From Effrenium voratum (Eukaryota; Sar; Dinophyceae; Suessiales; Symbiodiniaceae), in contig CAUJNA010001472.1 in the NCBI GenBank assembly GCA_963377175.1, positions 1 through 64,000 of the forward strand: a DNA stretch of 64,000 bases, written 5' to 3'. Position numbers and translations under genes: made by a program. Below, in pieces: positions 39,982 through 60,647 of the stretch (within the stretch, counting starts at the first letter, position 1; every line of letters starts with the position of its first letter). The notes beneath the pieces are model-generated. The model did not search any database, was not told where the DNA came from, and was given only the letters and a program-made list of their open reading frames with translations.

Positions 39982-40453
39982 TTTTTCGGACTCAAAAGTC
40001 TAGGGTCTACCCTAGGTTTTTTTGCATTTTTTGAATAAGCGCACCAAAACAGCCATTTTAAAACATTTTTTGAAACAGTCTAAACACATTTTGATAAATA
40101 TTTTTTTAGTACTGCATACCAAAACAAAAATTGAATTATTTTTTTAAAAATTCAATACACCTAAACATTGTCATTTTCAAAAACATATATTTTCCAAAAT
40201 ATTTTAGAAAATATATTTTTTTCAAAAGAGATAAATATATATATCATTTTAAGAAGAATTATTCAATAAGAAACAACATTTTCAATAATTCAATGAGAAG
40301 ACTAATAATTAATCAGTTTTTCGAAATTTTGATATTCCGGAGTTGCGCATGGCCCGCCTTGTAGGATTTTATCTTCAATATATAAAACGCTATACTTACA
40401 TTATAATTATAACATATAAGGGTATAAATGTTATTATTATAGTATGGTTATAA
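39982..40453. repeat. Left terminal inverted repeat of the PLV
   Basis: Begins TTTTCGGACTCAAAAGTC and is about 95% identical (by eye) to the reverse complement of 60178-60647. The outermost 35 bp contain an imperfect palindrome (CCTAGGGTAGACCCTAG on the minus strand). The inner end overlaps the stop of the first gene. Confidence 0.95.
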
Positions 40454-40972
40454 TTTAAATTCAGGATAACTATTTAATTGATATATCTTTCCTCTTTCAT
40501 ACATCATTTTAATAATACTATTAATATCTCTCACTGTATTTTTAACATTAAACTTTTCACTTTCAATAAATAATTTAATGATTTTTTTTACATCAACCCC
40601 TTCCATTTTATGATAAATCAATGCCCATAATATGTAGTCAATAATTTCATACTTTTTCTTACTGATTTTAAGAAATGCTTCAACATAATCATAAGGCGGT
40701 ATTTCATACACAGTTAAAAATATCAAAATGTCATCTTCAACATTTCTTTCATTAAACCTTTTAATATCTAAATTATATTCGATTGCGTCTTGGTAATATC
40801 TCCATTTTTTACATGTTCTGCATATATTTTCTTTACCCAAAGAATAATCAATAATATTATTAACTATTCCATTAGGTAAATTTAATTTATATAATTCCAT
40901 ATTTTCCTTTTTGAAGTGGCAACAGTTGTAGCATTTCTTATTGATATAATTATTGATTTCGGTTTCCACCAT
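40448..40972 (-). CDS. PLV zinc/F-box-like protein, left terminal
   Basis: 174 aa. The N-terminus has a Cys pair (KKCYNCCHF), then LYKLNLPNGIVNNIIDYSLG, which resembles the Leu-Pro...Ile core of an F-box, then a second Cys pair (ICRTCKKW). The rest is helical. The same Cys-F-box-Cys layout recurs in the 316-aa protein at 46002-46952, and an F-box-like start occurs at 59591. The gene lies next to the TIR and has the TTCTTGTAAAAAAGTATT-type promoter 30 nt upstream. F-box proteins link targets to ubiquitin ligases, so a role in host interaction is an inference. Confidence 0.7.
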   Translation of the reverse strand: MVETEINNYINKKCYNCCHFKKENMELYKLNLPNGIVNNIIDYSLGKENICRTCKKWRYYQDAIEYNLDIKRFNERNVEDDILIFLTVYEIPPYDYVEAFLKISKKKYEIIDYILWALIYHKMEGVDVKKIIKLFIESEKFNVKNTVRDINSIIKMMYERGKIYQLNSYPEFKL

Positions 40973-41000
40973 TTCTATTATAATATATATAGTTGTTTAT

Positions 41001-41027
41001 TTCTTTAAATACTTTTTTACAAGAAAT
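41001..41027 (-). promoter_or_regulatory. Early-type promoter box
   Basis: Minus-strand TTCTTGTAAAAAAGTATT followed by TAAAGAA, 29 nt before the ATG at 40972. One of five copies in the element. Confidence 0.75.
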
Positions 41028-41051
41028 ATTAAAATATTATTTAAATTATTA

Positions 41052-41458
41052 TCATTTACAACTACAATTGCATCTAACACAGTAAGGAATAATATTATTC
41101 AGTTCGTGTGACAACTCGTTTGATTTACGTTGCGCTGTCAGATTGTCATTATATTACCGTTTTTAATATCCATAGAAAAACCGCATCCGCAGTAATTACA
41201 TTGATTAGTGATATTATTTAAAAACCATTGCGCATTTACATAACCTTCTTTAGGTATTGTTCTTTTGGCTTTCCTGTCTTGTTCTTTGTAATTTAATATT
41301 TTCCTTTCAAAATAACTCATAATACATTTTTGATTAAATACATCATCAATATCTTTCGTATATTTATAAAATTTGACTTTGTTTAAATCTCTACACCTTG
41401 TAATTGCAGTCCATATCCATTCTGGATAATTCTTTACCAAAAAAATGGTTATAATCAA
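41052..41458 (-). CDS. PLV helicase C-terminus and HNH-like Cys tail (frame-shifted parts)
   Basis: Continues the helicase beyond its frame break. PEWIWTAITRCRDLNKVKFY is SF1 motif VI, with TRCRD in place of the usual T-R-A/T-R. The frame reaches ITNQCNYCGCGFSMDI and stops at 41147, but an overlapping frame then gives LTAQRKSNELSHELNN and a final Cys pair (CVRCNCSCK) ending at 41052. Together the C-x2-C, the LTAQR strand and the last C-x2-C-N resemble an HNH/treble-clef zinc module. The second break (41140-41150) is not in a homopolymer. Likely part of the same protein as 41391-44967. Confidence 0.6.
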
Positions 41459-43076
41459 AAATTGTTATGGTGTCATCAATGCTACTGCCTTGGGCAGAAT
41501 GACAAGTCGAGCAATATGCAAATATAAAATTACTTCTTATTTTACCAAGTGGCAAAGACTGTAGAATTTCAGTTTTAACATTTTTCAACGTAAATATTCC
41601 ATCGCTTCCAATATGAACAATTTTATATTTGAAATTTACATTAAAAACTGATGTTTTAGTTGTTGTATATTCTCTACAAATTAAAAATTCTCCTACTTCA
41701 TATTCATCTTTTCTATTTTCTAATTTTCTAATTTCATTTGATACATTTTTACAAGTTGTATTTAAAAATGCTATGTTGTTGATTGATTTGCTTATGTCAG
41801 TTGTATATTCAAAGTATTTTTCAATAACTTTCATAATAGGTAATTTATTTTCAAAAATATCAATTTTAATATTTCTTAGTTTATCTTTATCTTCCTGTGT
41901 GTTAAGTCGCTTACATTCTTTTAACAAAATATTATATTCAAAAATGTTATCTATAATGTTATCAGTATATACTTCATAGTCTCGAGTATTTGTTATCTCT
42001 TGAACTGGTTTTAACTGCTTGGTGTCTCCTGTTGCTATTATAATTTTGTTGTGCTTATTCTGTTCTACAAATTGTTTTATTCTCCAATATATATTTAAAT
42101 TACTAAAATAAACTTCGTCAAATACTATAACATCAAAATCTGTAAAATCAAATGGTTCTAATTTAGCATCTCCATAATTAATACCGAAAAATTTATTTAT
42201 TGTCATTGCTTCGCCTTCGAATGCCTGTAATAGTTTATTAGTAGGACAAATAAAAATTACATTATAATTTTTATCAACCATTTTTTGACATATATATGAT
42301 TTTCCTGTGCCCGGTAGTGCTCCACGAATCATAATAGGATTATTTTGTTCAATAATTTCTATAATATTATCTGTGTCATATTCATCTATTATATCAATAG
42401 TTTTACTTTCATAAATTGGTATTTGTATTAATTCGTTTTGTGTAATTTCATAATCTACAGTAGGAAATTTAATATATTCGTCGTTTGAAATTCTCCATCC
42501 TCCTATTTCATTATTAAAGATTAAAAGCTCTCTTGCTTTTGTTATATCCGATCGCGCTATTGTAAACGCATCTGTTTTGACACTGAACACATTAATACCA
42601 TTTTGATATAACTTAGAATAATCTTGATACATTCTAAAATTATGGTATTGAAGCAGTAGCTCTTTTACATACCTAAAACCATTCCTTAAGCGTGATGTGT
42701 CCTTTAAATTAAGTATATAATATGACGCCTGTTCTTCTTCTGCTGTATATTGTTCTTCATCTACTGTAATTTGTTCTGTCGTGAAATGTGTTAATTTATG
42801 TATTTTACCTCCATACTCTGCCTGATAGTTTAAAGCTTCCTTAAGATTTTTAAACACTGTGCTCTTCTGGTCAGTTGCTCCCCCCTTTTCTAAAAGTCCA
42901 TAATTAACATTTGCGACCAGTTTTTTAATACATTTATCTTCCTCATTGTCTTCGCTAATGTTTGTGTTCCAAAGTTCATTAACAATATTTTTATGTTCAA
43001 CTTTGTGAATAAATGAAGGTTGTTTAAAGTATAAAATATTAATTCGTTCTCTTGTCATGTTATCTAGTTGTTTCAA
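41391..43076 (-). CDS. PLV polymerase C-part fused to SF1 helicase
   Basis: 561 aa. Residues 50-60 (IKKLVANVNYG) match motif B of family B polymerases (K-x3-N-x2-YG). INVFSVKTDAFTI (161-173) fits motif C, with TD in place of DTD. The helicase follows: Walker A GALPGTGKS (252-260), Walker B VIVFDE (D320, E321), motif III ATGDTKQL (Q354), and a Pif1/RecD-type motif near the end (CSTCHSAQGSSIDD). The frame ends after DYNHFFGKEL. One T fewer in the T7 run (plus coordinates 41439-41445, read as A) restores motif VI. It overlaps the upstream frame by 17 nt. One A fewer in the A7 run at 43101-43107 would fuse it to the 635-aa part. Confidence 0.75.
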   Translation of the reverse strand: MKQLDNMTRERINILYFKQPSFIHKVEHKNIVNELWNTNISEDNEEDKCIKKLVANVNYGLLEKGGATDQKSTVFKNLKEALNYQAEYGGKIHKLTHFTTEQITVDEEQYTAEEEQASYYILNLKDTSRLRNGFRYVKELLLQYHNFRMYQDYSKLYQNGINVFSVKTDAFTIARSDITKARELLIFNNEIGGWRISNDEYIKFPTVDYEITQNELIQIPIYESKTIDIIDEYDTDNIIEIIEQNNPIMIRGALPGTGKSYICQKMVDKNYNVIFICPTNKLLQAFEGEAMTINKFFGINYGDAKLEPFDFTDFDVIVFDEVYFSNLNIYWRIKQFVEQNKHNKIIIATGDTKQLKPVQEITNTRDYEVYTDNIIDNIFEYNILLKECKRLNTQEDKDKLRNIKIDIFENKLPIMKVIEKYFEYTTDISKSINNIAFLNTTCKNVSNEIRKLENRKDEYEVGEFLICREYTTTKTSVFNVNFKYKIVHIGSDGIFTLKNVKTEILQSLPLGKIRSNFIFAYCSTCHSAQGSSIDDTITIFDYNHFFGKELSRMDMDCNYKV

Positions 43077-44967
43077 AAATACACCATATATTAAGCAATA
43101 TTTTTTTATTAAATAGCATTCTTCCTGTCCGTTTTAGTATAGTAGTTTTCTTTTCTATATAATATAACGTTAAGTCGTGTAGGTCATAAATATCAGTTGT
43201 ATCATCAAACGCTCGCCATATGTCGAATTGATTAAATACTGGTATTTCTGATATAGTAATAAACGCATGAGTAAATGCTTTTGATATATCGATTTCGATT
43301 TCATTTTTGATATCGCCATCGCACAATAAGCCAGATGGAACAACTGTTCTGGCTTCGTCTAAAATTTGAATATCAATGTCATTATAAAACGATTTATGAG
43401 ATAAGTTAAACAATGACTTATTAAAATTAAACATTGCTTTATTCATATTGTTATATGTAGTTTCATTACATACTGCAATGCATCCATCTGCAGAAGTTTT
43501 TATTAAATTTTGTGTTTTTATTATATATATTGTTTTGTTAAATTTCATTTTTATTTCTGATATAATACCAGCTTGAAATCTAATTCTTGGTTCGTAGCCA
43601 CTATTAACTAAATTGAAAAATAATTCAGATAACTTATTGTCTTCGGATACTAAATATATCTCTTTTGTTTTTTCATCAACTTTGGTATTTAGTATATCGT
43701 CAATATTTTTTATCATTCTATAAAGCGGTGGTTCCTCTCTTTCATTAATATAGTAGTCGGTTGAAGCTTTGACAGTTGGTATCTTGGTTATTAATTGTTT
43801 CTGTTGAATGCTTTTTAAGTCGTGATTCATTGCGTAAATATGACTGTTTTTGACCATTGCATAAAATGGTTTGATGTGCCTACTATTTATATCGGGGTCG
43901 CATTTATAAATTAATTTATTGCAACAATCATAAATTCTGCATGGAATTTTAAACTGTTTAAATACAGCCTCCATCTCCTGAATGGTTGACCCCGTTTCGC
44001 CAAAGTTATCTCTACCTATAATTTCAATTACTTTTTCTCTAGTTAGTCTATTACGGGTTCTTTCGTTCATAATTGTATCACTGTAAAAATCAGTTAATGC
44101 ATTAATCCAGCATTCATTATCGATATAATTACCCTTGCTAATTGCTTTATGTATGGTGTCTTCGTTCATCCTTAAAGGTGTATGTATATACCTATTAAAA
44201 ATTGAAACATTAGTAGCATCCCTTAAATTTTCTGTAAGAATGTCAAATTTTTCGCCGTCTTTATTTACCATATCTACTGATAATATTTTAATACATTCTA
44301 TATCGTCATAAAATGCCGTCATCTGTTCATAATCTTTTTTAAAATCTTTGTCAGTTCGTAATAGTTCTAGTGTATTAGAAAACTCATTATTTTTTGTATC
44401 GCCTCTTATTCCATAGTCTGTATTGGGGTCGCCTATCATTTTAAATATTCTTTTACCTATGATATCTTTAGAAAATGCAGTGGCTTTAATTGTAGCAGTA
44501 AAATTATCGTATCGTTTCACAAAAAATAAATTTTGTCTGTGTTTAAATGCATATTTGGACTTTATGGTTCTCTTGTCTTTGTGCTCTGCTATGTATAACA
44601 TAAATTGAACAAAATATTTATTTTTCCCTTCCCTTGCTCTTGGTCCTGGGTCGTTATCTATCTTCAGTTTCCCTCCCGTCTCCTTCTTTGTCCTTGCTTC
44701 TGCCATTCTTTGATTTAAGGGTTTATTTTCCTTGAATTTCGTAATATTATCCTTGTATTTTTGATATGCTTTATCATAAACTTTTGTATCTGTAGAAGTT
44801 AAACCCTTGATTAAATTTTCCGCTGTTGTAACATTTGAAATCTTCCTTTCGGTATATAAATTAACTACTCTATCTATTTTTCTAAGGTCTGATGGTTTTG
44901 CTGTCCGCGATGACTTCCGCCTTAGCACTGTTAAATATCCAATGTTTCGTTCCAAAGCCTTAGACAT
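43060..44967 (-). CDS. PLV replication protein N-part (PolB-like)
   Basis: 635 aa. Residues 1-130 are basic. A central region contains NYIDNECWINALTDFYSD and NFGETGSTIQEMEAVFKQF, typical text of viral replication proteins that precede a polymerase core. Near the end, EIEIDISKAFTHAF fits family B motif A (D-x2-x2-F/Y). Motifs B and C lie in the next, overlapping frame (41391-43076), so the natural product is probably one protein of about 1.3 thousand residues: polymerase, SF1 helicase and Cys-rich tail. Exonuclease motifs were not recognised. The early-type promoter box is 34 nt upstream. Polymerase assignment rests on three short motifs in order. Confidence 0.6.
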   Translation of the reverse strand: MSKALERNIGYLTVLRRKSSRTAKPSDLRKIDRVVNLYTERKISNVTTAENLIKGLTSTDTKVYDKAYQKYKDNITKFKENKPLNQRMAEARTKKETGGKLKIDNDPGPRAREGKNKYFVQFMLYIAEHKDKRTIKSKYAFKHRQNLFFVKRYDNFTATIKATAFSKDIIGKRIFKMIGDPNTDYGIRGDTKNNEFSNTLELLRTDKDFKKDYEQMTAFYDDIECIKILSVDMVNKDGEKFDILTENLRDATNVSIFNRYIHTPLRMNEDTIHKAISKGNYIDNECWINALTDFYSDTIMNERTRNRLTREKVIEIIGRDNFGETGSTIQEMEAVFKQFKIPCRIYDCCNKLIYKCDPDINSRHIKPFYAMVKNSHIYAMNHDLKSIQQKQLITKIPTVKASTDYYINEREEPPLYRMIKNIDDILNTKVDEKTKEIYLVSEDNKLSELFFNLVNSGYEPRIRFQAGIISEIKMKFNKTIYIIKTQNLIKTSADGCIAVCNETTYNNMNKAMFNFNKSLFNLSHKSFYNDIDIQILDEARTVVPSGLLCDGDIKNEIEIDISKAFTHAFITISEIPVFNQFDIWRAFDDTTDIYDLHDLTLYYIEKKTTILKRTGRMLFNKKILLNIWCIFETTR

Positions 44968-45000
44968 AATTATACTATATATAATAATAATATAATAATA

Positions 45001-45029
45001 TTTCTTTAACTATTTTTTTTACAAGAACT
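45001..45029 (-). promoter_or_regulatory. Early-type promoter box (replication gene)
   Basis: Minus-strand CTTGTAAAAAAAATAGTTA with AAGAAA, 34 nt before the ATG at 44967. A slightly diverged copy. Confidence 0.7.
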
Positions 45030-45055: not shown

Positions 45056-46021
45056 TTAAACTTTTAAAATTTCAAATCTTAAGAATGGTCGCGTGTTACG
45101 TTCTAAATAAAAATATGTTTGTCCTAACTTTTGTTCAATCCTTTCAACTTTATATTTTGTAGGCAACCAATTACTACTCCTTTCCTTTTCAGTTATTGCT
45201 TTCTTTCTGTAAATCTTCACTTCGTCACCTATGTTAATTTCAGGATATTTACGGGTTCTAGTTGCTTCGGTTGCCATTTTCATTTTTACTTTATAATTGT
45301 TTTTCGCCTTCAATGCTTCCGCTGGTGTCATTCCTATACTTGAATGTTCCATTTTATTATTGTAAGTTAATAATATTTCAAAATTATAATCTATCCATTG
45401 TATATTGTCCTTTCCTTCTTTTTCATCTTTTTCAACCCTTTTATATAACATATCTTTGTAGGTGCGTATAAAACGTTCTGCAAAATTAGGATGTCCTCTT
45501 GTGCGGTATAATTCTATTCCTTCTTCTTTGAAGTAATCTTCAACTGTTTTATTATATAAACTGCCTTCCTCGTCGCTATAAATAATTTCTGGTTTGCCTT
45601 TCATTTTCTGCATCCCTTCCATTACTCCCGCTAATATGTCAGGCGGTTGTTTTGATTTAATAGGTATTACTGTAGAATATCTGGTAAATATATCAATTAA
45701 AACCATCCCCACTTTAAATTTTTGATTGGGTATGTCATTAATAAAAAATAAATCTAATTGAAATTCAAAGTATGGATGTGGAGCAATAAATGAATTTTTG
45801 CCTCTTAATTGCTTCTTCTGTTCTATGTTCTTTTGAAACCATTCTTTAACATCGTTTAAGGTTATGCTTTGTTCCCTTTGCTTAGCATCCTTATAGGTTG
45901 TCGCAATGCTTCCATACCCGCTTTTGTCATGATAGATTTTTCTAATTATATCATTTTTATTAATATTTGCCATATTAATAAAGGTGATATTTTTTAACAT
46001 TTTATTCAAAATCTTCAGCAC
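45056..46021 (-). CDS. PLV rve-family integrase
   Basis: The frame allows 321 aa from 46021, but the internal ATG at 45973 (MANINKNDIIRK) is the more likely start because the first 16 residues overlap the upstream gene. DDE triad, in 321-aa numbering: D90 (EFQLDLFF), D150 (IIYSDEEGS) and E182 (NFAERFIRT). Upstream text IYHDKSGYGSIATTYKDAK is the usual Polinton/virophage N-terminal region. The C-terminal KYPEINIGDEVKIYRKK and FLRFEIL suggest an SH3-like DNA-binding barrel. It inserts linear viral DNA into the host chromosome, joining the TIR ends. The gene overlaps 46002-46952 by 20 nt, so the two are probably co-expressed. Confidence 0.93.
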   Translation of the reverse strand: MLKILNKMLKNITFINMANINKNDIIRKIYHDKSGYGSIATTYKDAKQREQSITLNDVKEWFQKNIEQKKQLRGKNSFIAPHPYFEFQLDLFFINDIPNQKFKVGMVLIDIFTRYSTVIPIKSKQPPDILAGVMEGMQKMKGKPEIIYSDEEGSLYNKTVEDYFKEEGIELYRTRGHPNFAERFIRTYKDMLYKRVEKDEKEGKDNIQWIDYNFEILLTYNNKMEHSSIGMTPAEALKAKNNYKVKMKMATEATRTRKYPEINIGDEVKIYRKKAITEKERSSNWLPTKYKVERIEQKLGQTYFYLERNTRPFLRFEILKV

Positions 46022-46952
46022 TATTTAAATATGCTTCGTACTGTTGTTGTTTTTGGTTACTCCTATTAGTCTGCGGTTTGATATCTTTGATACTTGGGTA
46101 TGAACTAAATATCATATTTTGTATTCTCTCGCTGATTTCTATTTCTTTTGTATAGTGCTTATAAATATTTTGTCCTACATCATTAAAAAGGATATTAGAA
46201 AGTGCATTATCCTGCTTATTGAAAATGTGTGATAATATTATTTTGAATATGTTTAACGTGTTCGAAATATTATTTTCAATATATCTAAAACAATCCCGTC
46301 TATTCTTTTGGTTTTTTGGTATGTCATCATCATTCTTATACTCATCAAACAATCTATCTACTAGACCATTTTTATATGTTTCTATGTATTTTATTTCAAC
46401 TGTTTTATAAATTGGTGTATCGCCTAAATCTACTCCAGCGCTTTCAGTTTTAATATTTCCTTTGTAGTATAATTCATAACAGTCCTTTATTCTGTCGTGT
46501 GTGTCCCTTGTGTAATTATGCCTTCCTTCGACATTCTTTAACAAAATAGATTTGATAAATTTGAATGTCGGAAATTTATATAATTTTGTAAAATAATAAT
46601 CCTTGATGTTGTTTGTTGTAACAGTTGTGTCTTCTTCCTTTTCATTTTCAATTATTTCAGTTAGTTTGATGAATTCTTTTGACTTATTACAAGTGTCAAT
46701 ATTTACAAATGTGCTCAATTGTTTTAATCTTTTGCATTTATAACATTCTTTATAATTATATTTGCATATGTGTTTAATAATATTTTCTGATAATTTAGTT
46801 CTATATAATTGAATATTATTATAATTAAATTTACATTCTTTACACATTCCAATTTTTCTATTTATCATTCTTATAGTGTCATTCATGTTGATTTTATTTA
46901 AGAACTCGTTAATTATTTCTTCCTGCTCAATCTCACTGAACATTTTCACCAT
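46002..46952 (-). CDS. PLV zinc/F-box-like protein, internal
   Basis: 316 aa. The N-terminal module IGMCKECKF, IQLYRTKLSENIIKHIC, CYKCKRLKQL parallels the 174-aa protein at 40448-40972 (Cys pair, LY-x3-L-x3-I core, second Cys pair). The remainder is helical and Lys/Glu-rich, with no enzyme motif. The C-terminus is basic (QTNRSNQKQQQ) and overlaps the integrase start. The early-type promoter box lies 20 nt upstream. A function in host modulation or DNA binding is possible but unproven. Confidence 0.65.
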   Translation of the reverse strand: MVKMFSEIEQEEIINEFLNKINMNDTIRMINRKIGMCKECKFNYNNIQLYRTKLSENIIKHICKYNYKECYKCKRLKQLSTFVNIDTCNKSKEFIKLTEIIENEKEEDTTVTTNNIKDYYFTKLYKFPTFKFIKSILLKNVEGRHNYTRDTHDRIKDCYELYYKGNIKTESAGVDLGDTPIYKTVEIKYIETYKNGLVDRLFDEYKNDDDIPKNQKNRRDCFRYIENNISNTLNIFKIILSHIFNKQDNALSNILFNDVGQNIYKHYTKEIEISERIQNMIFSSYPSIKDIKPQTNRSNQKQQQYEAYLNSAEDFE

Positions 46953-46970
46953 ATAATTAAAAATACTAAT

Positions 46971-46999
46971 ATTTCTTTAAATACTTTTTTACAAGAAAT
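46971..46999 (-). promoter_or_regulatory. Early-type promoter box
   Basis: Minus-strand TTTCTTGTAAAAAAGTATTT followed by AAAGAAA, about 20 nt before the ATG at 46952. A full-consensus copy. Confidence 0.78.
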
Positions 47000-47034: not shown

Positions 47035-47316
47035 TTATTCAACTGTTATAATTTTATATGTTTGTGCCTTATATTTTCTGGGTTTTGTATTCTGTAAATC
47101 TTCTGGTTTGTTTTCATAATCAATATATTTTAAATTGATATCTCCGTTTTCTGCTATCTTGTCTAATTTCTTTCTCCTATTATATCTGATAGCACTTGCT
47201 CTCTTGGTTTCCATAAAGTCTTTTTCTACTCGTCTCTTTTGATAATACAATCTATTATATAGTGCCAGTTGTTCCTTGATTTGTTCTAATGTCATATCTT
47301 CAGGTTTAATACTCAT
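47035..47316 (-). CDS. PLV small basic helical protein
   Basis: 93 aa: MSIKPEDMTLEQIKEQLAL, then YNRLYYQKRRVEKDF and RASAIRYNRRKKLDK. Predicted mostly coiled-coil with a strongly basic centre and no Cys. It has its own early-type promoter box about 30 nt upstream, which groups it with the replication gene and the F-box-like genes. Small basic proteins of this kind are common in PLVs, with no agreed function. DNA binding is an inference from charge. Confidence 0.65.
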   Translation of the reverse strand: MSIKPEDMTLEQIKEQLALYNRLYYQKRRVEKDFMETKRASAIRYNRRKKLDKIAENGDINLKYIDYENKPEDLQNTKPRKYKAQTYKIITVE

Positions 47317-47345
47317 TATATTATATATTATATTATATTATATAT

Positions 47346-47369
47346 TTCTTTAAATACATTTTACAAGAT
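47346..47369 (-). promoter_or_regulatory. Early-type promoter box
   Basis: Minus-strand ATCTTGTAAAATGTATTTA with AAGAA, 30 nt before the ATG at 47316. It is 2-3 nt shorter in the A run. Confidence 0.7.
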
Positions 47370-47376
47370 TTTTAAA

Positions 47377-49641: not shown

Positions 49642-49676
49642 AATTATTATATAGTAGGTTATAAAATAATTATATT

Positions 49677-50229
49677 CTATCTTTTTTTTTCCTCTTGAGC
49701 CAAATATACCTTTATTTAATGCATTGTATTTTTCTTGCTTCTGTCTCAAATATTCATTTTGCAATAATTGGTAATGCTGTGCTATATTTTGTAGCGGGTT
49801 TGGAGGCGGTGCTGGTTGCATTCTTCTTGGGGGCGGTGTGTTCGCTATTATATTATTTTGTTGCTGTTGTTGTGGTGGAACGTATTGCTCTTCTTCTTCG
49901 CGATATTCTACCTTTTGGGGCTTTGCTATTGGAACTGCTTTTAGTTTAGGTTTTATAGGCTTAGTTTCTAATGGTCCTTGGCAATTGCGCTCGTGGCTGT
50001 ATCTATATGATTTTAATGTTAAAGTTTTGGCACATTTTGGACAGGGTATTTTCTTTTCATTGCGTGCTTGAGTTTTTGAGTTGTTTTTAAGTGGTTCTAC
50101 TGGTTTGGCTTCTGGTGTTGGTTCTATTGTTGGTTCTATTTTTTGTGCTTCTTCTTCAATTGGTGGTAATTCATTTACTGGCTCGTCTGCTTCAATTGTA
50201 TTAGTAATTTCAGGTTCAACTTCTGACAT
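49677..50229 (-). CDS. PLV Pro-rich zinc-finger protein
   Basis: Starts at MSEVEPEITNTIEAD (50229). Acidic and Pro/Glu repeats (EPTIEPTPEAKPVEP) lead to one C2HC finger, IPCPKCAKTLTL...SHERNC, then a Gln/Pro-rich stretch and a helical, basic end (FGSRGKK). As given, the frame fuses with the fibre. Removing one base from the T9 run at 49682-49690 creates a stop right after GSRGKKR, giving about 184 aa and separating the genes. I take this as the natural arrangement. A role in virion structure or host binding is unknown. Confidence 0.65.
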
Positions 50230-52045: not shown

Positions 52046-52489
52046 ATGAGTATTGATGCTGAGAAATGGGACAACGATATTGAATATGCTTATAAGAAAA
52101 TGATAGAGCGAGAGAAAAAGAAAGAATACAACATATCAAATAGTAAATATGAATGTAATTGTGGCAAAGAAGTATTGAATAAAGATAAGGAAGAGCACGA
52201 AAGCAATGATTTAAATCATTTATACTACAGAAAAGGTAATATTGAAGGACTTATAATAGGCATGTATAGTGAAATTATTAACTATGAAAATGATTACTTA
52301 AAATTACATCCAGAAAATAACAAAATACATTATACAGATTATAGTAGAATTGATTATACCGACTTTTTAAAAGAACAAGAAGAAAAGACAATTCCATTAG
52401 ATGAAGATGATTTAAGTTATTTGTATAAGTATAGAGACAAATTAGAAGATTGTATAAAGCGTATAACTGAACTAACATTATCTCAATAA
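52046..52489 (+). CDS. PLV hypothetical with CxC/His site
   Basis: 147 aa. SKYECNCGKEVLNKDKEEHE contains C-x-C with a later His, possibly half of a zinc site with the following HL. The N- and C-termini are helical and charged. It lies 24 bp after the lipase gene and 12 bp before the next ORF, inside the capsid block. No family was recognised. Confidence 0.55.
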   Translation: MSIDAEKWDNDIEYAYKKMIEREKKKEYNISNSKYECNCGKEVLNKDKEEHESNDLNHLYYRKGNIEGLIIGMYSEIINYENDYLKLHPENNKIHYTDYSRIDYTDFLKEQEEKTIPLDEDDLSYLYKYRDKLEDCIKRITELTLSQ

Positions 52490-52500: not shown

Positions 52501-52722
52501 ATGTTTAGAAATAAAGACAAGCAAAACAAAATTCCATTAGAGAAGAAACTGACAAAAGAACCTACAAAATACGATAAACAATATAAAACATTAGATTATG
52601 ATACTTTAAAATATATAGTTGATACAAAAAATAATTATCTAATAAATACTATAAAAAATACAACTTCAAACAATTCTACTACAATGCTTCCACATAAGAA
52701 AAATATAAAAAATAAAAAATAA
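52501..52722 (+). CDS. PLV small hypothetical
   Basis: 73 aa, highly basic and Lys/Asn-rich (MFRNKDKQNKIPLEKK...HKKNIKNKK), with no motif. The ATG lies 12 bp after the previous stop and the stop 24 bp before the capsid ATG. Its codon use matches its neighbours. Confidence 0.5.
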   Translation: MFRNKDKQNKIPLEKKLTKEPTKYDKQYKTLDYDTLKYIVDTKNNYLINTIKNTTSNNSTTMLPHKKNIKNKK

Positions 52723-52746: not shown

Positions 52747-54348
52747 ATGGATAATATAATTGCAGAAAGTGAAACTACAATGATTAACTCGTTAAATTTT
52801 GGACTTCCAGAAACAGCACAATATATCACAGACAGAAGACACGTTAATTATTTTCCATCGGGTAGTAATGTCTATAATCCAAATGCAGGAAACAAGAATG
52901 TTAGATTTCATATTTCAGGTGAAGACAACACATATATTGATTTATCAAGTATTCGTTTATTTGCAAATCTTCAAAACACTGACGGAACACGAAGTCATTT
53001 TTTACGCCTGTTAGGTAATTTGTCATCCTTCTTCAGTCGTTATAGATGCACAGTAGGCGGACAACAGGTTCAGGATATTATTGAATACAATAGGCACTGT
53101 GAATTGTATAACTCCTTCAAAAGTCAAGATGCCCGAGATATGGACGATTTAGAAAGTAGCGCCAATCCTCGATGGGATGATGACTGGCGACACACATATG
53201 CTACTGGATTAGCAGAATTTCTTGATGCTAATAATGAACGAGGAACTACTGGAACAGCACCAGATGGTGCGTTAGTCACCGCGGGAGATCATAATAATTG
53301 GGGCGATTTAACAGCACGATATACCCGCCATTCAGTTGCAGGAATACCCGGCGCTAATGGTTATATGAGATTAGGACATAAACCGGTATGTGGACTGTTA
53401 GAAAGCAATTATTATCTACCTTTACGATATGCTCCGCTTGAACTGGAATTTACAATTGTATCGGATGAGCACGTACCAGTAATTACACCATTTGCTACTC
53501 GTGATGCAGCGGGGGATTTAATCAACAACACATATACTGACAAATACGGCTACTATTTCACAACAGGAGACACCTCAACGCAGTGGGAATTAAATAACGT
53601 AATTATAAGAGCCGAGGTAATTCAATTAGACAATACGGTCAATAATAACATAGTGAAACATTTGTTAGAGGGTCAAAGTTTGAAATTAGTTTTTCCAATG
53701 TATCACACTATGACACAATCATTCAACGCGGCAGGAAATGAAATTAATATGAATATTGTTAAATCCGCTTCTAAATTAAATGGTTGTTTCATTACATTGT
53801 ATCGCCCACCAAGAGCAGGAACTGACCCACAAAATACTAATTATTACAGACAAGACAACTACATTTACAAGCGATGGACTTATTTTTACAATCCGATGAT
53901 TAATTCTCGTATTTTTGATGGTCCTGATCCAGATGGAGCTGATCGCGCGACATACCAAGGAAAGGGCTTTCAAAATTCAGATTTAAACTTAACGTGGCAA
54001 TTACAAATCTACAACAAGAAATATCCAGAGTTTGAATGTCAATCAATGGCAGAAACTGCATATTATTTAAGACGAACATTACACTATTTGAACCCTGACC
54101 AAGACGCCTTTAGCATTTCATATAAACGCTACAGAGAAGACAAGTTCGTTATTGGTATATCGTTTGAGAAAATGGCAGACACTAATTTTACTGGACAGAA
54201 TACTAAAATGGGAGGTTTACTCGTTTTTAAATTGAAAGGAAGCAACAGAGCACTGACAGATAATGAAGATGTGCGAGAATTATTTGTGCATATGATTTCG
54301 GAGTCTGTTCTGGAATTACGCGAATCCGGAAGCATAATTTATGACTAA
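52747..54348 (+). CDS. PLV major capsid protein (double jelly roll)
   Basis: 533 aa, the usual length. The N-terminal anchor (ITDRRHVNYFPSGSNVYNPN) is followed by strands such as YIDLSSIRLFANLQNTDG and RYRCTVGGQQVQDIIEYN, then the second jelly roll from about residue 270, including NNVIIRAEVIQLDN and TYFYNPMINSRIF. It assembles as trimers forming the icosahedral shell. The same N-terminal pattern recurs in the GC-rich fragment at 61883. It is preceded by a clear TCTA late-type box, as expected for a structural gene. No frame fault is present, so the gene looks functional. Confidence 0.9.
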   Translation: MDNIIAESETTMINSLNFGLPETAQYITDRRHVNYFPSGSNVYNPNAGNKNVRFHISGEDNTYIDLSSIRLFANLQNTDGTRSHFLRLLGNLSSFFSRYRCTVGGQQVQDIIEYNRHCELYNSFKSQDARDMDDLESSANPRWDDDWRHTYATGLAEFLDANNERGTTGTAPDGALVTAGDHNNWGDLTARYTRHSVAGIPGANGYMRLGHKPVCGLLESNYYLPLRYAPLELEFTIVSDEHVPVITPFATRDAAGDLINNTYTDKYGYYFTTGDTSTQWELNNVIIRAEVIQLDNTVNNNIVKHLLEGQSLKLVFPMYHTMTQSFNAAGNEINMNIVKSASKLNGCFITLYRPPRAGTDPQNTNYYRQDNYIYKRWTYFYNPMINSRIFDGPDPDGADRATYQGKGFQNSDLNLTWQLQIYNKKYPEFECQSMAETAYYLRRTLHYLNPDQDAFSISYKRYREDKFVIGISFEKMADTNFTGQNTKMGGLLVFKLKGSNRALTDNEDVRELFVHMISESVLELRESGSIIYD

Positions 54349-54373: not shown

Positions 54374-54691
54374 ATGTATAAATTTCATAAACGAAATAAC
54401 TTAAAAAATAAAGGTAAGATATTCTTACAATCCTCGCAAATTAAATATAGTCCATTTGATTTAAAAGATAATGAATATCTAAAACACCTACACGAACAAA
54501 TGAAATTAAGAAATTCACAAGAAGCATCAGTAGCATTTAGAAAACACATTCAAGAAGGACACGCCAGAGCAAATTATCAAAATGAATTAGACAGATTAAC
54601 AATGGAACTACATCGCCCAAATCTACCACATTCGACGAAGGAGCATTTAGAAAAACGAATTAAGGAGCTGGAAAAATTAACATTTACTTAA
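54374..54691 (+). CDS. PLV small coiled-coil protein
   Basis: 105 aa: a basic start (MYKFHKRNNLKNKGK), then FDLKDNEYLKHLHEQMKLRN and a C-terminal helix (STKEHLEKRIKELEKL) with heptad spacing. It directly follows the capsid gene with its own TCTA box, which suggests a virion component or scaffold. No family was recognised. Confidence 0.6.
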   Translation: MYKFHKRNNLKNKGKIFLQSSQIKYSPFDLKDNEYLKHLHEQMKLRNSQEASVAFRKHIQEGHARANYQNELDRLTMELHRPNLPHSTKEHLEKRIKELEKLTFT

Positions 54692-54737: not shown

Positions 54738-55718
54738 ATGGCAACTACAGCAAGTTTAGAATTAATAAATCCATATGCAAAATTTGGATTGAAACGACGC
54801 CCCACTTATGAAGAAAGTGTAGGTCTAATTGGCGAAAATGATTTAATAACAGGAAAACTACCTAACCGAGATGCTACATTCTTCAAAGCAAGTCCTCAAG
54901 GAAGTTTTTTTGATGGAAGCGACCATTTAGAATTATTGAAAGACCAACAAATGAGAATATTAGACAGACAAATGAGAGAACTAATGATGAAACAGGAAGC
55001 GCGCAGAAACGGGCACACTTATGCAGTGCATAGGATGAATGCTGACACACCATTAACCAGAAACGCAGAAGCAATAGAAGATGAATATGATTTTTCCACA
55101 CCGCTACAAACAACAAGACAACACGAGGCAATGGTAGATACAAGGCTACAAGAACTAACCACAGCAACAAAAGAAAGAGTAAATGAAGTGAGCCAAGCAA
55201 TGGCATCAAACTTACGAGAAATGGGTGGAACAATTTTTCAAAGAATGCTAGGCAATAGACAATCAGCACCATCGGCAACAACAAGAACAGTACCGGATAA
55301 TCTCCCAGTATTAGAATACGAAGGTTCGCCAATTTCAGGCGGAGATGATGCCCAAGTAGAATATCAAGCCACAGGAGCATCAAGTTCAACGCCACAGCAA
55401 CCACCACCATTACCATTATATCCAGTATTCAAAACAACAATAGATAATAATATTAGTCCTGCTTACTGGAAAAACAACCCTAATTTAACAGTAGATGATA
55501 TTAAATTTAAATTTTATTTAAGAGGAATTCAAGTGCCACAAGAAAACGAAATACAAGAAGAATTGAAACACAAAGGCAGAGGCAAGGCGAGAACGTACAA
55601 AGAATATTTAGTAGATATGATTTTAGACACTATTGATAATGGCGGGTGGATAGTAAATTTAGGCAAAGGTAGAATAGAAGAACTCAAGGCAAGTTTTAAG
55701 GGCAAAGGTAAGAAATAA
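54738..55718 (+). CDS. PLV hypothetical structural-block protein
   Basis: 326 aa. It begins MATTASLELINPYAKFGLKR. A helical region (QQMRILDRQMRELMMKQEAR) is followed by a Ser/Pro linker (STPQQPPPLPLYP) and a C-terminal basic domain (GIQVPQENEIQEELKHKGRG to FKGKGKK). The KGRGKARTYKEYLVDMILDT segment could bind nucleic acid. Placed between capsid and packaging genes, it may be a minor virion or core protein (inference only). Confidence 0.6.
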   Translation: MATTASLELINPYAKFGLKRRPTYEESVGLIGENDLITGKLPNRDATFFKASPQGSFFDGSDHLELLKDQQMRILDRQMRELMMKQEARRNGHTYAVHRMNADTPLTRNAEAIEDEYDFSTPLQTTRQHEAMVDTRLQELTTATKERVNEVSQAMASNLREMGGTIFQRMLGNRQSAPSATTRTVPDNLPVLEYEGSPISGGDDAQVEYQATGASSSTPQQPPPLPLYPVFKTTIDNNISPAYWKNNPNLTVDDIKFKFYLRGIQVPQENEIQEELKHKGRGKARTYKEYLVDMILDTIDNGGWIVNLGKGRIEELKASFKGKGKK

Positions 55719-55733: not shown

Positions 55734-56540
55734 ATGATAATATTAACGAAAAATATACTGAAAAGAAAGAAGCAGAAATTCAATGACACATATGATGACG
55801 ACAGTTTTTCAATACATAACCTAATGAAACCAAACACTTCAACAACAATACAACCACCGAAATTGATGAAAAAAGGCATACCGAGAGAATTTATTGACAT
55901 TGCAACCAACACAGATACAATCGCCACAGAAACCAGAGAGACTCAAGAAAAGTTATACAATGATGCAAATCAACCATTAAATATGACATTTGAAGCGTTT
56001 AAGGTAAAGGAAAACCAAGACAATATGTTTAAAATAATGCTTAAAAACTTTTGGCGCAACACATACAAAAGAAATGAGCCAACAAGAACACAAGCAACAC
56101 AAACACTGAAAAACCAACGCGACGCAATGGTGTCAGCCTTTACTAAAATGCTCGACAACAACAAACCGCCAGAACCACCGCCAAAGAAACCACCAGACGA
56201 GGATGACAGCGATGAAGAAGAAAAGAAGTACAAACTGACAAAAATGATAGAAATAATGCTACGCAACGGCGCTACAATAGCAGATATCATATTAAACTTA
56301 TCACACAGTGCAGTTGCAACAACTATAAATATCGCAGATTTAGTCAATCAGATAACAGCAGGAAATGCACAAGGTAGCAATAGCAATTCATCAAATGAAG
56401 CTATTAGTGTTCATAGTTCTCCACCTATTACTGTTCATAGTTCTTCATCTGAAAGTCCAACAGAAATACCAGCACCAACAGAAGACGAAGAAGAAGAAGA
56501 AAACCAACATTTCAATTTTGAAAAATTAAAATCTAAATAA
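55734..56540 (+). CDS. PLV hypothetical, Pro/acidic linker protein
   Basis: 268 aa. N-terminal basic text (MIILTKNILKRKKQKF), a central PEPPPKKPPDEDDSDEEEKK linker, then a helical and hydrophobic segment (IEIMLRNGATIADIILNLSH) that might be amphipathic, and a Ser-rich acidic C-terminus with a repeat (SVHSSPPITVHSSSSE). No family was recognised. It starts 16 bp after the preceding stop. A membrane-active or capsid-internal role is possible but not shown. Confidence 0.55.
   Translation: MIILTKNILKRKKQKFNDTYDDDSFSIHNLMKPNTSTTIQPPKLMKKGIPREFIDIATNTDTIATETRETQEKLYNDANQPLNMTFEAFKVKENQDNMFKIMLKNFWRNTYKRNEPTRTQATQTLKNQRDAMVSAFTKMLDNNKPPEPPPKKPPDEDDSDEEEKKYKLTKMIEIMLRNGATIADIILNLSHSAVATTINIADLVNQITAGNAQGSNSNSSNEAISVHSSPPITVHSSSSESPTEIPAPTEDEEEEENQHFNFEKLKSK
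56528..56535 (+). promoter_or_regulatory. Late-type TCTA box
   Basis: AAAATCTA, 16 nt before the ATG at 56552. It overlaps the end of the previous coding region. Confidence 0.7.
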
Positions 56541-56551
56541 TATTATATATA

Positions 56552-56779
56552 ATGGGTTCAAGTAAATCAAAACCAGTAGAAATTGATGATGAAGAGGCTA
56601 TTAAAGTTATAAAAGATATAGATGTAAATACGATAAGTGAAATGTCAAGAATTGATATTCTACAAATAAATTCATTGAAAGCAATAATCAATAAATTAGA
56701 AAAAGTTAATGAATGTAAAAAAGATAAAACATATTATAAATTTCCTGCCTTAAATTTATGTAGCTATTCTTTATTCTAA
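56552..56779 (+). CDS. PLV small protein with N-myristoylation-like start
   Basis: 75 aa. MGSSKSKPVEIDD has Gly2, Ser at positions 3-4 and 6 and Lys at 5 and 7, matching the eukaryotic N-myristoyltransferase consensus with adjacent basic residues. The remainder is one or two helices (INSLKAIINKLEKVNE). Lipidation would place it at membranes. Preceded by a late-type box. The function is unknown. Confidence 0.55.
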   Translation: MGSSKSKPVEIDDEEAIKVIKDIDVNTISEMSRIDILQINSLKAIINKLEKVNECKKDKTYYKFPALNLCSYSLF

Positions 56780-56808: not shown

Positions 56809-57042
56809 TTAATTACTATCATAATCTGTCATTTCACTTTCGGGTAATTTTGTTGAGGCGTTGCTACACATATCATCTATTAAATCTTCTTCATCAACAA
56901 AATTATTTTGAAATCTTAATAATTCCTCGTCTGTTGGTCGTCTTTTTAACACTTTATAAAGTTTATGTATCCAAGAATTAGTATGAAAGTTATAATTACC
57001 TCTACGATAAAATCCACCACATCTACATAGTTTCATTGACAT
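56809..57042 (-). CDS. PLV small Cys-containing protein
   Basis: 77 aa: MSMKLCRCGGFYRRGNYNFH has C-x-C, and a His pair 11-17 residues on (NFHTNSWIHK) could complete a zinc site. The C-terminal half is acidic. A TCTA sits on its strand 20 nt upstream (57063-57066). It lies tail to tail with the previous gene and upstream of nothing on its own strand, so it is expressed from its own promoter. Confidence 0.55.
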   Translation of the reverse strand: MSMKLCRCGGFYRRGNYNFHTNSWIHKLYKVLKRRPTDEELLRFQNNFVDEEDLIDDMCSNASTKLPESEMTDYDSN

Positions 57043-57072: not shown

Positions 57073-57837
57073 TTATTCATCATTCGTAAATTGAAACGCC
57101 TGTTCAAATCTGATATGAAACATTTTGTTAATGTCTTTAGCATTCATATTCACGTAGAAGAAACTATAAGGTGCGTCATTAACGGCTTGATGATACATAT
57201 CTAATAATTGCTGTTTATCAACAATGGCGCTATTTTCTTCAATAAAACTCATTAACTCACTTGCATTTTTCAACATAAAAATATATAATGAACTGGCATT
57301 TAAACGAATGATAGGCGCTAAAACATTATATTTTTGTGTTGAACAAATTACACTTACTGCATCGTGCCTGCCTCTTGTAAATAATCCATGTAATAATTTA
57401 CTATATCTAACAAATTTAGGGTCGTCTGCGTGGTCATCAATAACGATTAATATTGAATGCAGTTTCTTTATCTTTTTAGATTTCATATAATTAATTATTT
57501 TCTTCTGTCTTTCAATTACATTTTCTAAATCACTTGGATTATAATTATCAAAATAAATTTGTTCTTTTTCATCATCTACGTGCAATTCGTCCCTGATATA
57601 TTTTTTAACTTCTGTAAATGTAGGGTCGTTATGGACACTGGGTGAAAATATAAATATTCTTGCGAATGAATTTCTATAAACATTCAATATTAAATTTTGA
57701 ATAAGGACAGTCTTCCCGCCCTTTGAACTCGCGACTATAATACTTCTAAATGGTAATTTTGGCACGTGCTCATATTTAGATTGTTTGAATTCATATTCAG
57801 TTATGTTTATTGGTTTTATTATTGGAACATCTGTCAT
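57073..57837 (-). CDS. PLV genome-packaging ATPase (A32/FtsK-HerA type)
   Basis: 254 aa. Walker A is ASSKGGKT (36-43), with Ala in place of the first Gly, as PLV enzymes often show. Walker B is ILIVIDDHADD (D134, D135). Text between them (IFIFSPSVHNDPTF) and after them (LFTRGRHDAVSVICSTQKYN, with a sensor-like Gln) matches the packaging ATPases of PLVs, virophages and giant viruses, which pump DNA into the preformed capsid. The length is typical. A late-type TCTA box lies 20 nt upstream. It is one of the four hallmark morphogenesis genes here, beside the capsid and penton proteins. Confidence 0.9.
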   Translation of the reverse strand: MTDVPIIKPINITEYEFKQSKYEHVPKLPFRSIIVASSKGGKTVLIQNLILNVYRNSFARIFIFSPSVHNDPTFTEVKKYIRDELHVDDEKEQIYFDNYNPSDLENVIERQKKIINYMKSKKIKKLHSILIVIDDHADDPKFVRYSKLLHGLFTRGRHDAVSVICSTQKYNVLAPIIRLNASSLYIFMLKNASELMSFIEENSAIVDKQQLLDMYHQAVNDAPYSFFYVNMNAKDINKMFHIRFEQAFQFTNDE

Positions 57838-58171: not shown

Positions 58172-58354
58172 ATGACTGTTATCCATTGCAATTGTTGTAA
58201 AACTTATGATAGCAAATATTTATTTAAACATCTAAATTCAAAACATCATCAGAAATTTGTAGAATATAGATGGAATAAAGACGATACAATGAAAAAACTT
58301 TACAAGAAAAGAAAGACAGAAATGAAAAATAAATTATCTTATTATTTAATATGA
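58172..58354 (+). CDS. PLV C2H2 zinc-finger peptide
   Basis: 60 aa: HCNCCKTYDSKYLFKHLNSK has the C-x2-C-x12-H-x3-4-H pattern of a single C2H2 finger, followed by a basic tail (KKLYKKRKTEMKNK). The stop overlaps the next ATG (ATGA), suggesting coupled translation or a shared transcript. A DNA- or RNA-binding role is inferred. Confidence 0.6.
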   Translation: MTVIHCNCCKTYDSKYLFKHLNSKHHQKFVEYRWNKDDTMKKLYKKRKTEMKNKLSYYLI

Positions 58355-58539
58355 AAAGGAGTTATACAGATTATATTAATATAATAGATGAAATGGAGAA
58401 TATAGAACAAGTAATAATTACTGACAATAAAATAAAAAAATGTTGTTATTATTCATTAGAAATAATTAAGTTAGGAATTCAATATCTCAAAAATAAAAAT
58501 GTAAATATTAATATAAATGGGAAAAAAGAAAAAGAGTAA
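58351..58539 (+). CDS. PLV small hypothetical
   Basis: 62 aa, MKRSYTDYINIIDEMENIEQ..., ending NININGKKEKE. It overlaps the previous gene by 4 nt and the next by 23 nt. Helical, with one CC pair (KKCCYYSLE). No motif. Confidence 0.45.
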   Translation: MKRSYTDYINIIDEMENIEQVIITDNKIKKCCYYSLEIIKLGIQYLKNKNVNININGKKEKE

Positions 58540-58835
58540 AGGCAAAGAAAGACCAACACCAGATATTGAAGCACGGAGAGAAACAGCAGAAAGTGTTAAA
58601 TCAATGGGTGAAAGTAAGACTATAAAATGTGATAAATGTAATCACATAATGAATTTTAAAAATGAATTGACAGTAGATAAGAAAGGTGGAGTTAAAGTTA
58701 GTTGTGTCCCATGTATGTTTTCTTATAAAAAAAACAGATAAAGATTTTAATATTCAGAAAAGAACAGATGGCGATATGGTTATTGAAACTAACGAACATT
58801 TGATTAATGTTAGTTTTAACAGGGACATAAGTTAG
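58517..58835 (+). CDS. PLV zinc-ribbon-like protein, probable frame fault
   Basis: The frame as given ends at 58741 (74 aa): a Lys-rich start (MGKKKKSKGKERPTP), then IKCDKCNHIMNF...VSCVPCMFSYKK, a C-x2-C...C-x2-C zinc ribbon. Removing one base from the A8 run at 58727-58734 extends it by about 32 coherent residues (KDFNIQKRTDGDMVIE...) to a stop at 58835. Zinc ribbons of this type occur in transcription factors. The role here is unknown. Confidence 0.55.
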
Positions 58836-58915: not shown

Positions 58916-59251
58916 ATGTCTGAAAATGATAATTATACTATTAATGATTTAATGAAGAAGATAACATTAATTGGTAACAATATCAAAACCTTAAATGATA
59001 TGATTAAATCCATTGATGACAAAATGAAACCAGTTGAACGCGAACAACAAAGCAACGAAGAGAAGGAGAATATGAATAAGATTTTTGAAAAGAAAGGGAT
59101 AGGCAGACCTAGCGGTGATTATGGTACCAAGCGTAAAAAATACTGCGATATGTTAAATAAGGGACAAATCAAAAGTCCAAAAGAACAAACATTAGAATAT
59201 TATAAACTAATTAAGGGCGATGATGATAAATATGTAATGGTTGGAAATTAA
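58916..59251 (+). CDS. PLV small coiled-coil/AT-hook-like protein
   Basis: 111 aa: MSENDNYTINDLMKKITLIG, a helical stretch (NIKTLNDMIKSIDDKMK), then GIGRPSGDYGTKRKKY, where GRPSG recalls an AT-hook core (G-R-P/K). The C-terminus is LEYYKLIKGDDDK. It is expressed alone, with 75 bp before and a repeat region after. Binding of AT-rich DNA is plausible but not shown. Confidence 0.5.
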   Translation: MSENDNYTINDLMKKITLIGNNIKTLNDMIKSIDDKMKPVEREQQSNEEKENMNKIFEKKGIGRPSGDYGTKRKKYCDMLNKGQIKSPKEQTLEYYKLIKGDDDKYVMVGN

Positions 59252-59329: not shown

Positions 59330-59361
59330 TATTGGAAACTGTGATGAGTTTGACAGAAATC

Positions 59362-59467
59362 GGGGGCATGATTTTGATAAAATCGGGGAATGATTTTGAT
59401 AGAATCGGGGAATGATTTTGATAGAATCGGGGAATTATTTTGATAGAATCGGGGAATGATTTTGATT
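59362..59467. repeat. 22-bp tandem repeat, about five units
   Basis: AATCGGGGAATGATTTTGAT plus AG repeats head to tail. The first unit has GGGGGC. Iteron-like, within an otherwise empty 340-bp stretch. Confidence 0.85.
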
Positions 59468-59534
59468 ATAACCATGCTATGATTATAACATGTAAAATAT
59501 TATATGTTATAGGTATATTCCAATATTTAATTTT

Positions 59535-59563
59535 ATTTCTTGTAAAAAAGTATTTAAAGAAAT
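59535..59563 (+). promoter_or_regulatory. Early-type promoter box, right end
   Basis: ATTTCTTGTAAAAAAGTATT followed by TAAAGAAATA, 27 nt before the ATG at 59591. The only copy on the plus strand. Confidence 0.78.
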
Positions 59564-59590
59564 AAACACTATATATATATTATAATAGAA

Positions 59591-60178
59591 ATGGAGTTTC
59601 AAAAACTACCAGTTGAAGTTATTAATAATATTATGTCCTATAAATATGGCAAGCCAGAATATATGAAAATAAAGCATAATCATAATGAAACATTGAAGAG
59701 AATACAAAGAAGATATAAAATTGACAAAACTGACATAGAAAGGGAAACAAAGCACTGTAATAATTTAGATGGTGATAAAGTAAAGAGACAAATATGTCAA
59801 TATTATGTTTCTAGGAAGGTTCCATTAAGCATTGAAAGTATTGAAGATATAGTTATGAAAGAAGGGGATGAAATAGATAGCTTACTAGATAAGTATGTAG
59901 GATATGAAAGTTATAAAGCAATAATAATAGTTTATATAATTTTACGTGTAAGGTTTCATCATTTTAATTATTTTGAGGATGATGAATATAGCAGTTATGG
60001 TTTTGATTTTCATAGTGGTAGACACTTAATGGGTTATATAGACCAAGATAATATAACTGATGTAATGGAATACGCAGTTGCAACAATATGTAGAAATATT
60101 GATAATGAAAGGAATACAATGAATATTGTAGGAGTAAAACACATAAGGTTTATACTAATTATTGATGAACCTGAATAA
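59591..60178 (+). CDS. PLV F-box-like protein, right terminal
   Basis: 195 aa: MEFQKLPVEVINNIMSYKYG matches the beginning of F-box domains (Leu-Pro-x-Glu-Val/Ile at the start, then Ile). The rest (KHNHNETLKRIQRRYKIDK, then helices with VYIILRVRFHHFNYFED) has no recognised motif, and the N-terminal Cys pairs of the two other F-box-like proteins are absent. It mirrors the left-terminal gene at 40448-40972 in position next to the TIR and shares its promoter type. Possible ubiquitin-pathway adaptor (inference). Confidence 0.6.
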   Translation: MEFQKLPVEVINNIMSYKYGKPEYMKIKHNHNETLKRIQRRYKIDKTDIERETKHCNNLDGDKVKRQICQYYVSRKVPLSIESIEDIVMKEGDEIDSLLDKYVGYESYKAIIIVYIILRVRFHHFNYFEDDEYSSYGFDFHSGRHLMGYIDQDNITDVMEYAVATICRNIDNERNTMNIVGVKHIRFILIIDEPE

Positions 60179-60647
60179 TATAACCATACTATGATTATAA
60201 CATTTATACCCTTATATGTTATAATTATAATGTAAGTATAGCGTTTTATATATTGAAGATAAAATCCTACAAGGTGGGCCATGCGCAACTCCGGAATATC
60301 AAAATTTCGAAAAATTATTAATTATTAGTCTTCTCATTGAATTATTGAAAATGTTGTTTCTTATTGAATAATTCTTCTTAAAATGATATATATAATTATC
60401 TCTTTTGAAAAAAATATATTTTCTAAAATATTTTGGAAAATGTGTGTTTTTGAAAATAAACATGTTTAGGTGTATTGAATTTTTCAAAAAATAATTCAAT
60501 TTTTGTTTTGGTATGCAGTACTAAAAAAATATTTATCAAAATGTGTTTAGACTGTTTCAAAAAATGTTTTAAAATGGCTGTTTTGGTGCGCTTATTCAAA
60601 AAATGCAAAAAATCCTAGGGTGGACCCTAGACTTTTGAGTCCGAAAA
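60178..60647. repeat. Right terminal inverted repeat of the PLV
   Basis: Reverse complement of the left TIR. It ends ACTTTTGAGTCCGAAAA. Outside it, a poly-A tract begins after 11 bp. Confidence 0.95.

Follow-up and report, generated by a model that had tools for sequence, protein, structure and literature searches.

A probably defective Polinton-like virus in a symbiodiniacean contig, with two classes of upstream motif

Introduction

Polinton-like viruses (PLVs) of dinoflagellates have been described as Dino PLVs (Bellas et al. 2023, PMC10120064) and as an element spanning about 21.2 kb in Symbiodinium kawagutii (Haro et al. 2025, PMC12721341); endogenous DNA viruses were estimated at 1–2% of the Polarella glacialis genome (PMC10120064). 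Here we analyse an element of this published kind, of which it is a further copy, situated at 39983–60647 (20,665 bp, or 20.7 kb) in a 64,000-nt stretch of DNA, positions 1 to 64,000 of contig CAUJNA010001472.1 (the window). It shares host group and capsid homologs with both descriptions and differs from the elements as described there in that its replication gene is, judging from comparison with relatives, broken. We consider it very probable that the element belongs to a PLV existing in many copies in Symbiodiniaceae and that this copy is integrated and by now defective.

Three other described systems resemble the element in part. In the Tlr1-like pPolB-S1H PLVs an OTU region and a superfamily 1 (SF1) helicase reside in one replication protein, as here, and Tlr1 carries an rve integrase, as does our element; unlike in the published account of that group, the polymerase palm lacks confirmation by Pfam here and an N-terminal priming domain was not identified (PMC11071308). 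Mavirus and the type 4 endogenous mavirus-like elements (EMALEs) are reported to have an rve integrase, terminal inverted repeats (TIRs) and an A/T-flanked TCTA upstream of genes (PMC8547959, PMC10945749), whereas our element has a predicted capsid fold with a higher score against PBCV-1 than against mavirus, a fused SF1 helicase and a second, 29-bp class of upstream motif. OmPLV from Oxyrrhis marina is also a dinoflagellate PLV with a fragmented replication gene, TIRs and no target-site duplication (TSD); its description gives a tyrosine recombinase, without an rve integrase, and a helicase located N-terminal to the polymerase (PMC12721341).

A fourth relative is the uncultivated IMG/VR contig IMGVR_UViG_3300028392_002905 (17,398 bp, hereafter L001), which may be free or integrated. 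It shares with the element the integrase (36% identity), penton (28%), lipase (32%), capsid (28%) and ATPase (52%); it differs by another replication protein, no TCTA at −17 to −24 and no long TIR in the contig.

Results and Discussion

Element limits and gene content

The sequence-only reading of the window had placed an element with TIRs of about 470 bp at 39982–60647, and this was borne out: the arms align with 96.8% identity (457 matches, 15 mismatches and three gap columns). Bounded by TIRs, the element is within the 15–40 kb size range of PLVs. The GC content of the element is 29.2%, compared with 53.1% in the left flank (1–39982) and 56.6% in the right flank, taken from 60811 to 64000 and thereby omitting an A-rich tract. 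As that reading had also said, genes are AT-rich, tightly packed and more than 20 in number; 23 open reading frames (ORFs) of at least 60 aa, with two pieces of the replication gene counted, make up 87% of the element (Table 1). No tRNA genes were found.

The morphogenesis genes are open: a double jelly-roll (DJR) capsid protein, a packaging ATPase, an S74 fibre, a putative penton and a putative lipase. Structure prediction gave a DJR fold for the capsid protein, with a higher score against PBCV-1 than against mavirus, and the Pfam matches of the ATPase (Pox_A32, PF04665, E 9e-12) and of the fibre (S74, E 7e-10) exceed the cut-offs, so that capsid, ATPase and fibre stand as first proposed. Assignment of the remaining genes is more guarded. 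The rve match of the integrase (E 2e-4) is under the Pfam cut-off (21.8 versus 32.6 bits), yet the acidic residues D83, D143 and E175 are present. The assignment of the penton, in PLVs a single-jelly-roll minor capsid protein, comes from similarity to one L001 ORF, at 28% identity; the profile search gave no informative Pfam match, and no NCBIfam or PHROG family was seen. The lipase has a GHSLG motif and 32% identity to an L001 ORF, with all Pfam hydrolase matches under the cut-off.

Other collections added little. The capsid had no match in PDB sequence searches and none in the phage collection. No NCBIfam match was obtained with the capsid, penton, lipase or first replication piece, and those of the ATPase, the integrase (IS481, E 1.4e-10) and the helicase (recD, E 1e-7) were far under cut-off. 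In PHROGs, the terminase match of the ATPase was the only one at E <0.001; four other ORFs had weaker matches.

A zinc-finger-like stretch of 42 residues lies near the start of the 950-aa fibre ORF, while in L001 it is located in a separate 212-aa gene; thus, the 950-aa ORF may be a fusion of two genes run together.

Relatives and host

The proposal of a Polinton-like provirus in a dinoflagellate-type genome found support among the relatives. The capsid has 350 of them; among the 120 listed, four carry a source name, and all four are Skav gene models, with identity up to 70%. Capsids at least 85% identical occur on ENA contigs reaching about 0.9 Mb in length. Eight of the 69 relatives of the replication piece are also Skav models, and two have no other name than JGI's ‘hypothetical protein’. 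Skav we take to be Symbiodinium kawagutii. In the left flank, an 18-kb long terminal repeat (LTR) retroelement occupies 19641–37668, with LTR copies of about 350 bp that are 98% identical. Besides an aspartyl-protease-like region and a reverse transcriptase of copia type, it carries a KptA/Tpt1 RNA 2′-phosphotransferase domain, which is unusual. The ORF with the KptA domain is >90% identical to several ENA proteins; the only named one of its 74 matches is from the symbiodiniacean Effrenium voratum (96% identity over 29% of the query). We regard a dinoflagellate of the Symbiodiniaceae as the very probable host. The right flank contains an inverted repeat at 60984–61463 (158-nt arms, 93% complementary, 164 nt apart).

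Scans of viral contigs with the capsid (alone and aligned), the helicase piece, the ATPase (alone and aligned) and the replication alignment retrieved only L001, through the ATPase queries, and scans of genome contigs for relatives retrieved none. Where the element has its replication pieces, L001 encodes a protein of 1286 aa without significant similarity to them. By its motifs this protein is presumably a full protein-primed polymerase, which Pfam did not call. Since L001 shares the morphogenesis genes and not the replication protein, the two gene sets appear, from these comparisons, to have been exchanged independently between such elements. Within L001, two adjacent genes have a 300-nt stretch in common (15948–16885, 80% identical).

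Replication gene

In the relatives the helicase and the region of piece 1 are joined in one protein; in this copy they are split. The SF1 helicase of piece 2 matches AAA_19 (PF13245, E 4e-6) above the Pfam cut-off. Motif-like stretches of the polymerase palm are conserved, with no Pfam polymerase match, and a PDB sequence search with the replication alignment gave nine weak matches (best E 0.02) which we took as chance. Upstream of the palm-like region is an OTU-like, protease-like region, with Cys286 and His376 invariant in all 24 aligned sequences. For a maturation protease of the adenain/Ulp1 type there was no Pfam match at E up to 0.1 in 22 of the 23 ORFs, with the 62-aa ORF left out and distant forms liable to escape. 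The sequence-only reading had regarded the protease as absent, and took this absence together with the fused replication protein as setting the element apart from classical Polintons. The absent-protease reading falls once the OTU-like region is recognised, and the fusion is an already published feature of PLVs (PMC11071308).

For the family, the polymerase-helicase of that reading is right; still, the gene in this copy changes frame at least three times, past the motif-A-like region and twice more toward the C-terminal end. We compared the gene piece by piece. A relative of 1093 aa, P0121, is a single ORF over the first break, with 94% identity in piece 1 and 98% over 455 residues in piece 2; stopping about 100 residues short of the end of piece 2, it informs on the first break only. 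Piece 2 and both C-terminal stretches, compared separately, are matched within one protein in 11 of the 69 relatives, a set whose members all match piece 1 by construction and from which proteins longer than about 1111 aa fell out; for the closest, P0139, identities are 76%, 97% and 80%. Given P0121 and these 11 relatives, open across the breaks, we conclude from sequence comparison that the replication gene is broken in this copy. Programmed frameshifting was considered and rejected: P0121 is open over the first break, the 11 relatives span the later ones and the window copy shifts frame again. The ORF within the broken C-terminal part, without Pfam match, we assume from its motif to be HNH-like.

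The claim of a near-intact provirus, able or recently able to replicate, would thus need the frame changes to be base-call errors in AT-rich sequence. Indeed, this copy has open ORFs for capsid, penton, ATPase and integrase, its relatives have open frames at the corresponding places of the replication gene, and it has been cautioned that consensus errors can make genes of endogenous viral elements appear fragmented (PMC10120064). However, at least three frame changes are concentrated in one gene, the TIR arms are 3.2% apart and a TSD is missing, and we regard replication competence as improbable.

Ends of the element

Identical TIR arms are expected for a linear genome at integration; the 3.2% divergence would therefore argue against a very recent insertion. 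A TSD of 5–6 bp, expected of an element with rve integrase, was not found at the TIR ends; the sole matches are internal to the right TIR, and the candidate ACTTTT was rejected, as its right-hand copy sits there. Abutting the left end is a 14-bp inverted copy of the TIR interior (as a control, 2 of 861 host 50-bp windows match the element over at least 14 bp). Its simplest reading suggests templated filler at an end-joining junction; another reading is insertion by integrase with one end subsequently lost and repaired. With no TSD and with this 14-bp piece, the left end suggests that the element was captured by end joining, or that one end was repaired later, and speaks less for a clean junction made by the integrase. 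Outside the right TIR lies a 146-bp A-rich tract (60660–60805), separated from it by 12 bp.

A self-synthesising Maverick/Polinton transposon without virion stage would also possess an rve-like integrase, TIRs and many copies in relatives. We find this quite unlikely: the element retains open genes for capsid, ATPase, fibre and putative penton, five genes and the short zinc-finger-like stretch are held in common with a viral contig, L001, and a replication protein with OTU region and SF1 helicase is described for PLVs, not for classical polintons (PMC11071308). That a contaminating free virus or a chimeric contig was misassembled onto host DNA is very hard to credit, since both TIRs are complete, the GC of both flanks is host-like and capsids of at least 85% identity lie on long ENA contigs (known from capsid matches alone), even though the A-rich tract is a typical assembly trouble spot and a TSD is missing.

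Upstream motifs

A 29-bp motif, TTTCTTGTAAAAAAGTATTTAAAGAAATA, occurs in three perfect copies and two variants, each upstream of an ORF: the replication gene and four ORFs of unassigned function (174, 316, 93 and 195 aa). Both halves occur exactly five times each in the element, always paired; the first half has no further site in the 64 kb, and five were reached in none of 100 shuffles. The regions upstream of the outermost ORFs, 174 and 195 aa (40973–41032 and 59531–59590), are near-identical over about 50 bp; the two proteins show no blastp similarity at E 0.01. In the noncoding gap ahead of the 195-aa ORF there is a tandem array (59344–59466, 22-bp unit, 5.5 copies), a possible origin or regulatory array.

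The second class is TCTA, which starts 17–24 nt ahead of the ATG in 8 of the 23 upstream regions (penton, capsid, ATPase and the 105-, 326-, 75-, 77- and 111-aa ORFs); the distances assume the first ATG as start, and the motif was spotted in the data before testing. None of 600 shuffles reached eight TCTA in any 8-nt window. In a family-wise, count-based test that allowed for each of the 256 tetramers in every window over 40 nt, TCTA ranked first and was equalled in 23 of 1000 shuffles. For 12 chosen regions, TCTA over −12 to −45 was reached in 9 of 1000 shuffles; TAGA, its reverse complement, shows no enrichment (885/1000), and in L001, AT-rich as well (32% GC), TCTA is found at −17 to −24 in 0 of 14 genes. 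TCTA and the 29-bp motif are never upstream of the same gene, the chance of that alone being 0.09. The Mimivirus-type early motif AAAATTGA was tried and rejected, with 8 sites in the element and none within the 60-nt upstream regions.

Several results weigh against a promoter role. The element is 71% AT and contains 203 TCTA on both strands; over −12 to −45 in all 23 regions the count is not significant (116/1000 shuffles); and in a z-score scan of all 4-mers over 60 nt TCTA scored 6.3, below the shuffle 95% level of 7.25, with top ranks held by 4-mers of the 29-bp motif. A fair possibility, then, is that base composition or a host initiator, and not a role as giant-virus late promoters, accounts for the TCTA sites, and the family-wise figure for the tight window leaves room for this. 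What speaks against it is the confinement of all eight starts to an 8-nt window, together with the TAGA and L001 controls.

In CroV, a TCTA with A/T flanks serves as late promoter, and mavirus and the type 4 EMALEs have it as their promoter (PMC8547959, PMC5294985); ChlorV is reported to have the same late promoter (PMC13196603). According to PMC10945749, a response to CroV was seen in just one of eight EMALE types, type 4, which carries TCTA. From this match and this response, the TCTA layout predicts, by analogy, a giant-virus helper for the element. It is conceivable, if rather doubtful, that Symbiodiniaceae PLVs are virophage-like, with a TCTA late promoter on capsid, penton and packaging genes and the 29-bp motif silencing or early-running the replication gene and small Cys-containing genes; this would imply an undescribed giant virus of Symbiodiniaceae, of CroV/ChlorV type, whose infection wakes the elements.

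In searches for PLV promoter motifs, which covered open literature, no title or abstract opening among the papers retrieved reported promoters of dinoflagellate PLVs. PMC7805220, PMC12220804, PMC12721341 and PMC10120064 do not use the word ‘promoter’ in their main texts; it appears four times in PMC11071213, never on PLV motifs, and once in PMC12480563, on virophages. Within this scope the two-class layout is a new, testable regulatory lead.

Table 1. Features of the element and its left junction (window coordinates)
Feature	Position	Strand	Basis
14-bp inverted copy of TIR interior (40341-40354), possible templated filler	39968..39981	-	identity
Left TIR, about 470 bp	39983..40452	+	arm alignment
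174-aa Cys-containing ORF; 29-bp motif upstream	40448..40972	-	ORF
29-bp motif copy 1 (174-aa ORF)	40998..41026	-	sequence match
ORF in broken C-terminal part of replication gene	41138..41320	-	comparison with relatives
Replication piece 2: polymerase motif B/C-like region, SF1 helicase	41391..43058	-	Pfam, relatives
Replication piece 1: N-terminal region, OTU-like region (about residues 257-389), motif-A-like region	43060..44967	-	alignment of relatives
29-bp motif copy 2, variant (replication gene)	45000..45028	-	sequence match
rve-type integrase, D83 D143 E175	45056..46000	-	Pfam, acidic residues
316-aa Cys-containing ORF	46002..46952	-	ORF
29-bp motif copy 3 (316-aa ORF)	46970..46998	-	sequence match
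93-aa ORF	47035..47316	-	ORF
29-bp motif copy 4, variant	47342..47370	-	sequence match
950-aa ORF, N-terminal part running into S74-chaperone fibre	47377..50229	-	Pfam
Putative penton (minor capsid) protein; TCTA upstream	50343..51197	-	L001 similarity
Putative lipase	51240..52022	+	GHSLG motif, L001
147-aa ORF	52046..52489	+	ORF
73-aa ORF	52501..52722	+	ORF
Major capsid protein, DJR; TCTA upstream	52747..54348	+	predicted fold, relatives
105-aa ORF; TCTA upstream	54374..54691	+	ORF
326-aa ORF; TCTA upstream	54738..55718	+	ORF
268-aa ORF	55734..56540	+	ORF
75-aa ORF; TCTA upstream	56552..56779	+	ORF
77-aa Cys/His-containing ORF; TCTA upstream	56809..57042	-	ORF
A32-type genome-packaging ATPase; TCTA upstream	57073..57837	-	Pfam PF04665, L001
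Three short overlapping ORFs (60, 62, 74 aa)	58172..58741	+	ORF
111-aa ORF; TCTA upstream	58916..59251	+	ORF
29-bp motif copy 5 (195-aa ORF)	59536..59564	+	sequence match
195-aa ORF, ends at right TIR	59591..60178	+	ORF
Right TIR	60179..60647	-	arm alignment

Implications

In a functional relative, a linear genome would be copied by protein priming at the TIRs, and the OTU-like region would free the priming domain. Genes behind the 29-bp motif could serve early expression or regulation of latency, and TCTA promoters would activate the capsid and packaging genes, with a coinfecting giant virus as a plausible trigger. The present copy would be mobile only with proteins from other copies. To our knowledge, no trigger that switches dinoflagellate PLVs on has been described; the two-class promoter layout would predict which kind of giant virus wakes these elements and which of their genes rise first.
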